Shown in pieces: positions 50,982-53,550 of a stretch of 64,000 nucleotides of DNA (position 1 is its first letter; the number at the start of each line of letters is the position of its first letter). Under the pieces are notes generated by a model. That model did not search any database. It was not told where the DNA came from and saw only the letters and a list, made by a program, of their open reading frames with translations. The position numbers were made by a program, and so were the translations under genes. Location: contig JAHHIE010000001.1 of the NCBI GenBank assembly GCA_019358945.1, positions 1 to 64,000 on the forward strand. The letters run 5' to 3'. Source of the DNA: Stenomitos rutilans HA7619-LM2 (lineage in GTDB: Bacteria > Cyanobacteriota > Cyanobacteriia > Leptolyngbyales > Leptolyngbyaceae).

Positions 50982-51266
50982 GTGCGGGAAAAACGTGACG
51001 ACAGTCGAAGCAAAAACGGCACAAAGAACAGGCAATGGCGTTGATTATAGTGAAGGTTTGTCCATTCGCACAGATTCCTTATCTAGCAGTCTTAAATCAT
51101 GCGTGAAAAGCATGCTGTTCTCTCTTTCCAGGATTGACACAAAGTTTTGCAAAACCCAACGAATCCTCGTCGTTCAGCACACGCATCGCTTTGGTCATCG
51201 CTAAAATTTAATTAAGAGTGAATGTGGCCGTCCTGTTATGTTAGGATCTATAGCCATGGGAGAAGT

Positions 51267-51348
51267 GGGTCGATGCCCGAGTGGTTAATGGGGGCGGACT
51301 GTAAATCCGCTGGCTATGCCTACGCTGGTTCAAATCCAGCTCGGCCCA
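51267..51348 (+). tRNA. tRNA-Tyr (GTA)
   Basis: 82 nt. Acceptor stem GGGTCGA/TCGGCCC (one G-T pair), discriminator A, D-arm GCCCGAGTGGTTAATGGG, anticodon GTA in GGACTGTAAATCC, a long variable arm typical of bacterial tRNA-Tyr, and T-loop GGTTCAAATCC. The CCA is not encoded. tRNA-Thr follows 100 bp downstream. Confidence 0.97.
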
Positions 51349-51448
51349 TCCACGAACAAAGTTTTGGGCTTTGAGTTCTCAGTTTTGAGTTAACAAAGCA
51401 CGTAGCTTTAACTCAACATTCAAAACTCGCAACTCAAAACTAAAGGTT

Positions 51449-51520
51449 GCCCGTGTGGCTCAGTGGTAGAGCACACCCTTGGTAAGGGTGAGGTCACGAG
51501 TTCAATCCTCGTCACGGGCT
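51449..51520 (+). tRNA. tRNA-Thr (GGT)
   Basis: 72 nt. Acceptor stem GCCCGTG/CACGGGC, discriminator T, D-loop GGCTCAGTGGTAGAGC, anticodon GGT in CTTGGTAAG, T-loop GAGTTCAATCCTC. The spacer from tRNA-Tyr carries a TTTTGAGTTAA...TTAACTC inverted repeat. Confidence 0.96.
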
Positions 51521-51621
51521 TAGGAACAGAAAGAAAAACGTCGTCTTGAGCGGAGAAGCTGCCTAAAAGCTTAGGCCAGATTGTTGTGGCGGTGAGACGA
51601 ACGAGACTGTTCCAAGTCAGC

Positions 51622-51676
51622 TTGGAACCAGCGTAGGTGTAGCCAATGGCTTTACAGTCCGCCCCCATTTGACCCA
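51622..51676 (-). pseudogene. Inverted tRNA-Tyr remnant
   Basis: Read on the minus strand it gives TGGGTC, then (after loss of the D-arm) AATGGGGGCGGACTGTAAA, then GGCTACACCTACGCTGGTTC, matching tRNA-Tyr at 51267-51348 through the anticodon stem, variable arm and start of the T arm with a few changes. It cannot fold as a tRNA. It lies about 100 bp from the tRNA-Thr gene, in opposite orientation to its source. Confidence 0.8.
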
Positions 51677-51798
51677 CAGTGTTAGAGGGTTGATGCAAGG
51701 GATACTGCCAAGTAAATAACTATTGGTTGATGCGGTGGTCGATACCAGAAACTAAAGTAGTAGAGTGACTAATCGATCGGATCGACGCTTAAACCAAT

Positions 51799-52011
51799 AT
51801 GGGCGACTTTCTACAGGCACTTGAAGCCAGCAGTAATAAGTACAGCCAAAAACTTGATGCTCTTTTGGAAGAGTGCAAGGGCTTAACCTGTCGAGGGGAC
51901 TATGACGAAAAGCAAATGGCGTTGAATGCTTCTCTCGCTCTAGAGTTTGAAGCGATCATTGTTGACTACGAGACTTTAATCTCCAAATACAAGGAATTAC
52001 ACCAGCCGTGA
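51799..52011 (+). CDS. Small helical hypothetical protein
   Basis: 70 residues, acidic and predicted fully helical (LQALEASSNKYSQKLDALLE, then LEFEAIIVDYETLISKYKEL), with one Cys pair (ECKGLTCRG). No family recognised. The start is weakly supported, but base composition and sequence look coding. Confidence 0.5.
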   Translation: MGDFLQALEASSNKYSQKLDALLEECKGLTCRGDYDEKQMALNASLALEFEAIIVDYETLISKYKELHQP

Positions 52012-52228
52012 TGTGTTTTGCAAGGCATCTCTTCTACACGGTCTAAACGATCAAGTGGTTGGTCATGGTCGGATGCAACTGGTAGCGATCGATTGCTAAA
52101 TTGCTGTATATGACAAGCTGTAATAAATCAATCTGTCATGCTGCTTCTGACCGTACTATATATTTTATGAGCAAAGGTCACCCACTTCTGATTAGACTCC
52201 TGTTAACAAAGAAAACTGAGAGGGCATT

Positions 52229-52387
52229 ATGTCTTTAGGGACAATATTAATCATTATTCTGGTACTCGCTCTTTTAGGCGTTCTACCAATCTTCCCTCAC
52301 AGCCGCAGTTGGGGCTATTATCCTAGTGGAGGGCTTGGTACAATTCTCGTCATTGTTATAATCCTCCTGCTACTGCGGGTGATTTGA
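52229..52387 (+). CDS. DUF3309-family small membrane protein
   Basis: 52 residues. LGTILIIILVLALLGVLPIF, then PHSRSWGYYPSGGLG and a second hydrophobic helix (TILVIVIILLLLRVI). This two-helix layout with the WGYYPSGGLG loop is that of DUF3309 proteins. GAGAGG lies upstream of the ATG. Function unknown; such proteins are often stress-linked. Confidence 0.82.
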   Translation: MSLGTILIIILVLALLGVLPIFPHSRSWGYYPSGGLGTILVIVIILLLLRVI

Positions 52388-52566
52388 AGTCGAACAACCT
52401 CCACTTTTTTCTTCCTCATCCAGCTATCAACCCGGCAGTAAAAGATCTAACAGCACCCTACACAATCAGAGCAGAATGCCAAACGATGTAGGGACAAACA
52501 TTGCCGAGTTAATAAGTAGGAAGAGGCTCTAGTGATTGAGGCATAGTCACACACCTTGACAGACTA

Positions 52567-52964
52567 ATGCTAACAACCTTGCTCTATGCAGCGATCTTTG
52601 GTTTGATGTTTGGTCGCGCTTAGCTTTCGTATCGTCTTGCTTGGGAGGCATTTGAAAGTAGTGATTGGAGATGATGATCAGCCTACACTGGCAAGAGCGG
52701 TACGTATTCAGCAAACTTTGCTGAATACGTACCGCTCTCACTCATACTGCTCTACCTCTTAGAAAGTCGCGTGGAGACAGGCATGTGAATGCATGAGCTT
52801 TGCAGTGCCCTGCTCCTAGGGCGCATCCTACACGCTTTCGGTGTCAGTCAAGTGAGAGAAACCATCAGTTACCGCGCGTTGCTGGCATGGTGCTCACTTT
52901 GACAGTAATGATGCTTGCGTCAGTAGGGCTTTTAGTCAGCTACACCTTCCAGGTTGGCGCTTAG
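52567..52964 (+). pseudogene. MAPEG-family membrane protein gene with several frameshifts
   Basis: Reading across frames gives MLTTLLYAAIFGLMF, (extra base) VALSFRIVLLGRHLKVVIGD and DDQPTLARAVRIQ, (missing base) NFAEYVPLSLILLYLLES, a TGA, then SALLLGRILHAFGVSQ, (missing base) GMVLTLTVMMLASVGLLVSY and a stop at 52964. NFAEYVPL and LLLGRILHAFG are hallmarks of the MAPEG (YecN-like) family. At least three frameshifts and one stop show it is dead, or that the assembly is poor here. A perfect 45-bp palindrome covers the second frameshift. Confidence 0.8.
52694..52738. repeat. Perfect palindrome, 22-bp arms, 1-nt centre
   Basis: AGAGCGGTACGTATTCAGCAAA (arms of 22, given here as 52694-52715) is the exact reverse complement of 52717-52738, with one C between. 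It lies within the MAPEG pseudogene where RAVRIQ should continue to NFAEYVPL. Confidence 0.95.
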
Positions 52965-52974
52965 CATCTGAGCT

Positions 52975-53235
52975 TCAAGCCGCGATCGCGCTTCTCCCTT
53001 TACCTTGATCAGCCAGCCGACGAAACTCTCGCTGCAAGCGATGCTCGAGCTTCGATGACCACTTAGGCACATCCGTGCGCTTGTGCCGCACGAGTAAGTA
53101 GGTCAATTGAAGGCTGAGCAAGCTTGGTACGGTTTCCACATGGACAGCATTGCCAGACTCATCTGCCAAAGCAAGGGCAATCTTGCCTGCCTTTCGATTA
53201 ACGTCGATGACCTTGGTAATATATGGCGTTAACAT
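52975..53235 (-). CDS. Hypothetical protein
   Basis: 86 residues, basic, soluble. The N-terminal part looks like beta strands (MLTPYITKVIDVNRKAGKIA) and the C-terminal half is an Arg/Lys-rich helix (LEHRLQREFRRLADQGKG). AGAGGT lies upstream of the ATG. No family recognised. Converges on the MAPEG pseudogene with a 10-bp gap. Confidence 0.6.
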   Translation of the reverse strand: MLTPYITKVIDVNRKAGKIALALADESGNAVHVETVPSLLSLQLTYLLVRHKRTDVPKWSSKLEHRLQREFRRLADQGKGRSAIAA

Positions 53236-53550
53236 TGTCTACCTCTGATGCCCTAACCTTCACTCAATGATATTTAGTTGACGTGGTTGTACCTCTGCCA
53301 CAGGGGGAAACGTTCACCCGTCCATAGGCTGAGTCAATCACCGCAGTCGTTCCTGCTTTGTGCTGACAAGTTTACCGATTTAAAGAATGACGGCTACAGA
53401 TCAATCAGTGGGTAGGGGCAAGGCATTGCCTTGCCCCTACAGGATGTGTCGCATTTTCAATTCAAATTGGCATTACTTCAGCCGATGCGATCGCGCAAAA
53501 TGAGCTGCCGAATGGGATGATTGTGGAGGATACAAAGCGAGAGATTTAAG
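53236..53550. other. Intergenic region with a palindromic repeat
   Basis: Holds the perfect palindrome at 53412-53440 and otherwise nothing I can identify. Confidence 0.4.
53412..53440. repeat. Perfect 14-bp-arm palindrome of the GTAGGGGC type
   Basis: GTAGGGGCAAGGCA (53412-53425), one T, then its exact reverse complement. GTAGGGGC...GCCCCTAC palindromes are interspersed widely in filamentous cyanobacteria; the element at 32130 shares the GTAGGGG-type end. Confidence 0.8.

Follow-up and report, generated by a model that had tools for sequence, protein, structure and literature searches.

A perfect 45-bp palindrome in a cyanobacterial MAPEG pseudogene as the probable product of quasi-palindrome correction by template switching

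A MAPEG pseudogene of Stenomitos rutilans HA7619-LM2 contained a perfect palindrome of 45 bp at the second of its three frameshifts, and we consider it highly probable, judging from the sequences compared here, that this palindrome was produced by one quasi-palindrome correction through a template switch in the MAPEG gene. The pseudogene was found within the window, that is, the whole stretch of 64,000 nt that was analyzed. Its features and those of the palindrome are as follows (all on the + strand).

52567 to 52964, + strand: MAPEG pseudogene, from ATG (52567-52569) to TAG (52962-52964), with three frameshifts and one nonsense codon.
52612 to 52613, + strand: GG where relatives have one G; slippage-like +1 frameshift, from the alignment to six relatives.
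52694 to 52715, + strand: left palindrome arm, the probable recipient; Val codon changed to an Ile codon, His-codon base missing after 52710; exact reverse complement of the right arm.
Between 52710 and 52711, + strand: missing base; -1 frameshift inside the palindrome, from the alignment to six relatives.
52711 to 52721, + strand: GCAAACTTTGC core, the putative fold-back priming stem; the same 11 bases are found in the intact relative L003.
52717 to 52738, + strand: right palindrome arm, the probable template; retains the FAEYVPLS coding of the relatives.
52786 to 52788, + strand: TGA nonsense codon; Trp in five of six relatives, Cys in L038.
52873 to 52878, + strand: CGCGCG run, two bases shorter in relatives; +2 frameshift resembling dinucleotide slippage, from the alignment.

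The original prediction had described a dead MAPEG gene whose three frames together spell a full protein, interrupted by at least three frameshifts and one stop, and had proposed alignment to intact MAPEG genes as the check. When aligned end to end with six intact MAPEG relatives of 129-131 residues, positions 52567-52964 bore this out: the three frames jointly encoded one MAPEG protein, and the lesions (+1, -1 and +2 frameshifts and the TGA codon) were confirmed. The first frameshift also put a TAG in frame at 52621-52623. The read-through of the pseudogene, with X at each break, matched PF01124 with 39.6 bits (cut-off, 23.4 bits), and the intact relatives L038 and L003 matched it with 61.6 and 65.2 bits. 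Having no complete open frame, the pseudogene is not a working member of the family and no whole protein can be made from it. A raw six-frame search listed only two other MAPEG loci in the genome, on contigs C15 and C5, each with an open frame; because the dead protein had no match to either of them at E 1e-6, they are regarded as distant paralogues. Counted where the other six sequences all agree, private changes of the pseudogene numbered 2/40, 3/65 and 2/5 at codon positions 1, 2 and 3, respectively. Since these counts were within the span seen among intact genes (0/38 to 9/47 at position 1 and 0/62 to 12/74 at position 2), the gene died late on its branch, and the absence of flaws in the arms fits a recent event.

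The palindrome predicted at the second frameshift, with arms of 22 bp, was located exactly at 52694-52738, its arms being 100% complementary and separated by a single base. It was the longest perfect palindrome in the window, where the runner-up had 14-bp arms (loops 0-8), and also across 464 kb of the contig that contains the window, where the runner-up had 16-bp arms (loops 0-6). This second longest palindrome of the 464 kb, a perfect one of 33 bp, was located on contig C39 of genome G000 at 401525-401557. Folding of the 45-bp palindrome as single-stranded DNA gave -25.5 kcal/mol, compared with -2.7, -4.4 and -3.7 kcal/mol for the same stretch in three intact relatives. That the motif stretches of the relatives themselves fold poorly is a consideration against a switch.

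Arm pairing was compared in a register of 17 left-arm positions, the skipped base and five further positions, one central base and 22 right-arm positions. The close relatives paired at 13 (L038), 12 (L003), 14 (L039, equal to L056), 14 (L057), 12 (L041) and 10 (L040) of 22 positions, and this register ranked 1, 4, 1, 1, 3 and 10 among the 341-347 registers of each relative's own gene. An imperfect inverted repeat was thus present at the same place in the relatives, as quasi-palindrome correction requires of the ancestor. One of the refuting observations named beforehand, a perfect palindrome already present in relatives with a working gene, was not made: over 106 relative rows the maximum was 15/22 pairs (mean 9.3), against 22/22 in the pseudogene, and this candidate was rejected. 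The left arm was changed at one of the 12 columns invariant in the six relatives (the first base of the Val codon), in addition to the deletion, and the right arm at none of 13; the remaining left-arm differences lay in variable columns. Because all 22 left-arm positions equalled the reverse complement of the right arm and only the left arm had departed from the conserved protein, the right arm is taken as the template and the left arm as the copy.

The relatives were drawn from matches to the dead protein, the own genome included, in 8 of 58 relatives (E 1e-6), 23 of 388 class genomes (E 1e-12) and five of 42 order genomes (E 1e-20), together with the best 80 of 426 loci from a scan of named genomes. 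After removal of the window's own L004, L011, L013, L014 and L019, the motif set comprised 106 rows with 99 distinct motif sequences (some genes being present twice). This set is skewed to intact motifs because NFAEYVPL was one of the six peptides that seeded the scan and because the best 80 of its 426 loci were retained. Within a set so biased, all 111 matching loci, including five overlapping pieces of the window itself, spanned the motif, and no relative frameshifted at the same site was found. One of the cyanobacterial MAPEG relatives, L045 (genome G103), showed one TGA in its match, which spanned the motif, and may be a second pseudogene or a short frame.

All six closest relatives had V and H ahead of NFAEYVP, and the residue between H and NFAEYVP was A in five (RVHAN) and S in L041. 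In the 99 distinct motif sequences, the Val position was occupied by V (80), A (17) or T (2) and never by Ile, the His position by H (76), Q (19), N (3) or F (1), and the residue after His by A (46), G (28), S (24) or T (1). Ile at the Val position was found in YecN of E. coli, a more distant MAPEG protein, which has RIH. The ancestral RIQ-A-NFAEYVPL that had been proposed was therefore rejected in favor of the RVHA of the relatives. Because the relatives read R-V-H-A-N, the missing base falls in the His codon and the change from Val to Ile in the same copied tract. The base that is missing was nevertheless the extra base of the near-palindrome, as had been predicted: it corresponds to the bulge of the relatives' quasi-palindrome. 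It is conceivable that the ancestor instead had CAG-GCA and lost one G from the run, given Gln at the His position in 19 of the 99 sequences, yet His was found in all six close relatives. As these had approximately 60% protein identity to the pseudogene, we infer the immediate ancestor of the arms rather than observe it.

The partial palindrome of the relatives, the restriction of change to the left arm and the loss of the bulge base support the mechanism named in the original prediction, quasi-palindrome correction by template switching. In the ancestor, the sequence coding for RVHANFAEYVP would have folded into an imperfect hairpin centered on the core GCAAA-C-TTTGC, containing a few mismatches and a one-base bulge in the His codon. 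Minus-strand synthesis would have copied the right arm first; after GCAAA, the new end would have folded back on the GCAAACTTTGC core, been extended on its own right-arm sequence and then rejoined the original template at the outer homology AGAGCGG. The left arm would in this way have been overwritten by the reverse complement of the right arm, turning the Val codon into Ile, removing one base from the His codon and matching the third positions, with a -1 frameshift as the result. An alternative event between strands, using the nascent plus strand, would give an identical product that is indistinguishable here. We infer that there was a single event, as well as its strand and the fold-back step. 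The template switch would explain one of the four lesions. The indels at the G pair and in the CG run are of a kind typical of slippage and would require no template switch; together with the nonsense codon, they would represent separate slippage-like or point events.

An artefact of assembly, amplification or sequencing, either an in vitro polymerase fold-back at the quasi-palindrome or indel errors in the reads, is improbable. Fold-back errors by polymerases can arise in vitro as well as in the cell, the assembly is a draft in 119 contigs, and the pseudogene combines three indels and a stop with otherwise little decay. Against such an origin, full-length matches to curated models were obtained for other genes of the window (PsbA, 360/360; Der, 1-431/432; TonB-siderophore receptor, 1-649/649; HmpF, 1-552/553), which disfavors an indel-rich read set, though a local error could still have occurred. 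In addition, the completeness of the genome is listed as 99.9, and a consensus of many reads should presumably drop rare in vitro switches.

The perfecting of the palindrome by chance, through independent point mutations in a decaying gene and an ordinary one-base deletion, was evaluated under a GTR+G model on the gene tree with the window arms masked, assuming site independence and one gene tree. The branch leading to the window was 0.62 substitutions per site in this tree. Given the six relatives, the observed left arm had a log10 P of -7.06 and the right arm of -4.18 (deletion not counted). When the arms were allowed to evolve independently, 10.2 pairs were expected and full pairing had a log10 P of -9.62 (deletion at the bulge not counted). 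Other stretches of 22 sites gave a mean log10 P of -8.22 (range -12.5 to -4.6). The left arm was thus no more diverged than other stretches, so what speaks for a switch is only its match to the right arm. Chance would also be helped by a motif that was partly palindromic from the outset and by a gene that is dead and carries other indels. It is nonetheless very unlikely to have been the cause: the substitutions alone had a probability of approximately 10^-7; when the window branch was simulated 20,000 times with three random indels, no palindrome arm in any part of the gene was longer than 13, a length attained once (loops 0-5); and private changes were few at the first and second codon positions that are otherwise invariant (5/105), which left little neutral decay to draw on.

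A functional or mobile element (a terminator, a protein site or a MITE-like repeat) inserted or selected within the gene is scarcely credible as an account of the palindrome, even though dispersed palindromic repeats are common in the genome and two repeats flank the gene: both arms aligned at every base with the relatives' coding sequence, with no insertion, the next bases were CACTC with no T run, the arm occurred once per strand in 464 kb (its own two arms), and the 23-base core, searched as a degenerate pattern, had one match in the whole genome and none in any other of 388 genomes. A mobile or dispersed repeat was rejected on these single occurrences.

The upstream flanking repeat (52447-52517) was a MITE-like repeat of approximately 70 bp with 76-82% matches in G010 (15 listed), weaker matches in G014 (3) and G003 (1), and further matches in its own genome on contigs C105 and C114. 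The other (53412-53440) was a near-perfect palindrome of 29 bp with 14-bp arms, GTAGGGGCAAGGCATTGCCTTGCCCCTAC, dispersed genome-wide: with up to three mismatches, it had 100 forward and 101 reverse matches in the genome and its backwards control had none, which corresponds to approximately 100 copies because both strands read nearly alike. The pseudogene was located in a gene-poor stretch (51221-53520) together with two tRNA genes, for Tyr (51266-51352) and Thr (51449-51520). When two pieces of its flanks were searched in seven genomes of the genus, its own included, the six others gave no match.

What is new at this locus is that the amino acids of RVHANFAEYVP by themselves make the coding sequence partly palindromic and that the bulge lies within the His codon. 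The 39 relatives with exactly this motif had a mean of 10.4/22 pairs, compared with 10.3 expected from the amino acids and 5.9 in the rest of the gene. In 102 distinct relatives, the mean was 9.2/22, compared with 8.9 expected when synonymous codons are drawn at random for the same amino acids and 5.75 in the rest of the gene. As the means of the register were close to the amino-acid expectation, the excess of pairing is attributed to the protein and not to codon choice. A pull of synonymous sites toward the palindrome in working genes was rejected (mean z of 0.16, s.e. 0.10, relative to synonymous redraws in the 102 relatives). The palindromic effect was moderate in most relatives: the register ranked first in seven of the 102 and fifth or better in 19, with a median rank of 28.5 of approximately 318. 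When the motif was encoded 200,000 times with uniformly drawn synonymous codons, the best pairing was 19/22, and because the bulge sits in the His codon, this register cannot hold a perfect palindrome without loss of the reading frame.

It is possible, though unlikely, that coding for RVHANFAEYVP amounts to an unavoidable quasi-palindrome in which full correction by template switching takes away or inserts one base, that a frameshift hotspot is therefore inherent in MAPEG genes of this type, and that some of their losses in bacteria are repeats of the same event. A search for a second corrected copy with the degenerate core pattern in the 388 class genomes matched only the own genome, and the backwards control gave one match (G017). 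The motif of E. coli yecN had no quasi-palindrome (5/22 pairs, rank 206 of 351). The yecN gene was present in 5,374 of 5,426 genomes, with at least 80% of the gene in 5,373, and was full length in 59 of 60 among the matches listed; owing to its motif, it is uninformative on the hotspot. From the finding that an amino-acid motif alone can make its gene partly palindromic, it is predicted that some protein motifs hold a mutational hotspot, which the choice of codons could weaken but perhaps not abolish.

The mechanism of mutation is already known, and this locus is a clean natural example of it. The quasi-palindrome correction model is credited to Ripley (1982) in PMC7202029, where Dutra and Lovett (2006) is also cited, and is backed there by the E. 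coli thyA hotspot and by lacZ reporters; work in E. coli, phage T4 and yeast has established the mechanism (PMC7202029, PMC8604942). As in thyA and the lacZ reporters QP5 and QP6, an imperfect repeat would have been perfected in one step, with a frameshift from a bulge indel and with one arm as template for the other (PMC7202029). In the lacZ reporters the quasi-palindrome is 18 bp (PMC7202029); the present case is a fossil in a cyanobacterial pseudogene, formed under no laboratory selection, and its perfect product is longer, with 22-bp arms. The homogenization of inverted-repeat arms described in Saccharomyces cerevisiae similarly involves clustered coding changes and template switching from arm to arm, recognized from phylogeny; those cases are substitutions in working genes of close strains, whereas here substitutions and a frameshift were found in a dead gene compared with distant relatives (PMC8604942). 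Perfect inverted repeats over coding sequence, for which template switching is likewise proposed, are reported in the mitochondria of Nematomorpha, but those are numerous, reach 284 bp and lie in working genes, whereas the single one found here broke its gene (PMC6649704). Among the titles and abstract openings searched, no description of this locus or of a quasi-palindrome in MAPEG was found.

The cyanobacterial MAPEG protein Sll1147 is described as dispensable in standard growth and required under heat, cold and lipid peroxidation (PMC6798054); the pseudogene belongs to the same family and, unlike Sll1147, can make no whole protein. Bacterial genes such as this one, in which the template arm, the copied arm, the frameshift and the ancestral state can all be read, may serve as anchors for estimating how often genes are inactivated by quasi-palindrome correction.
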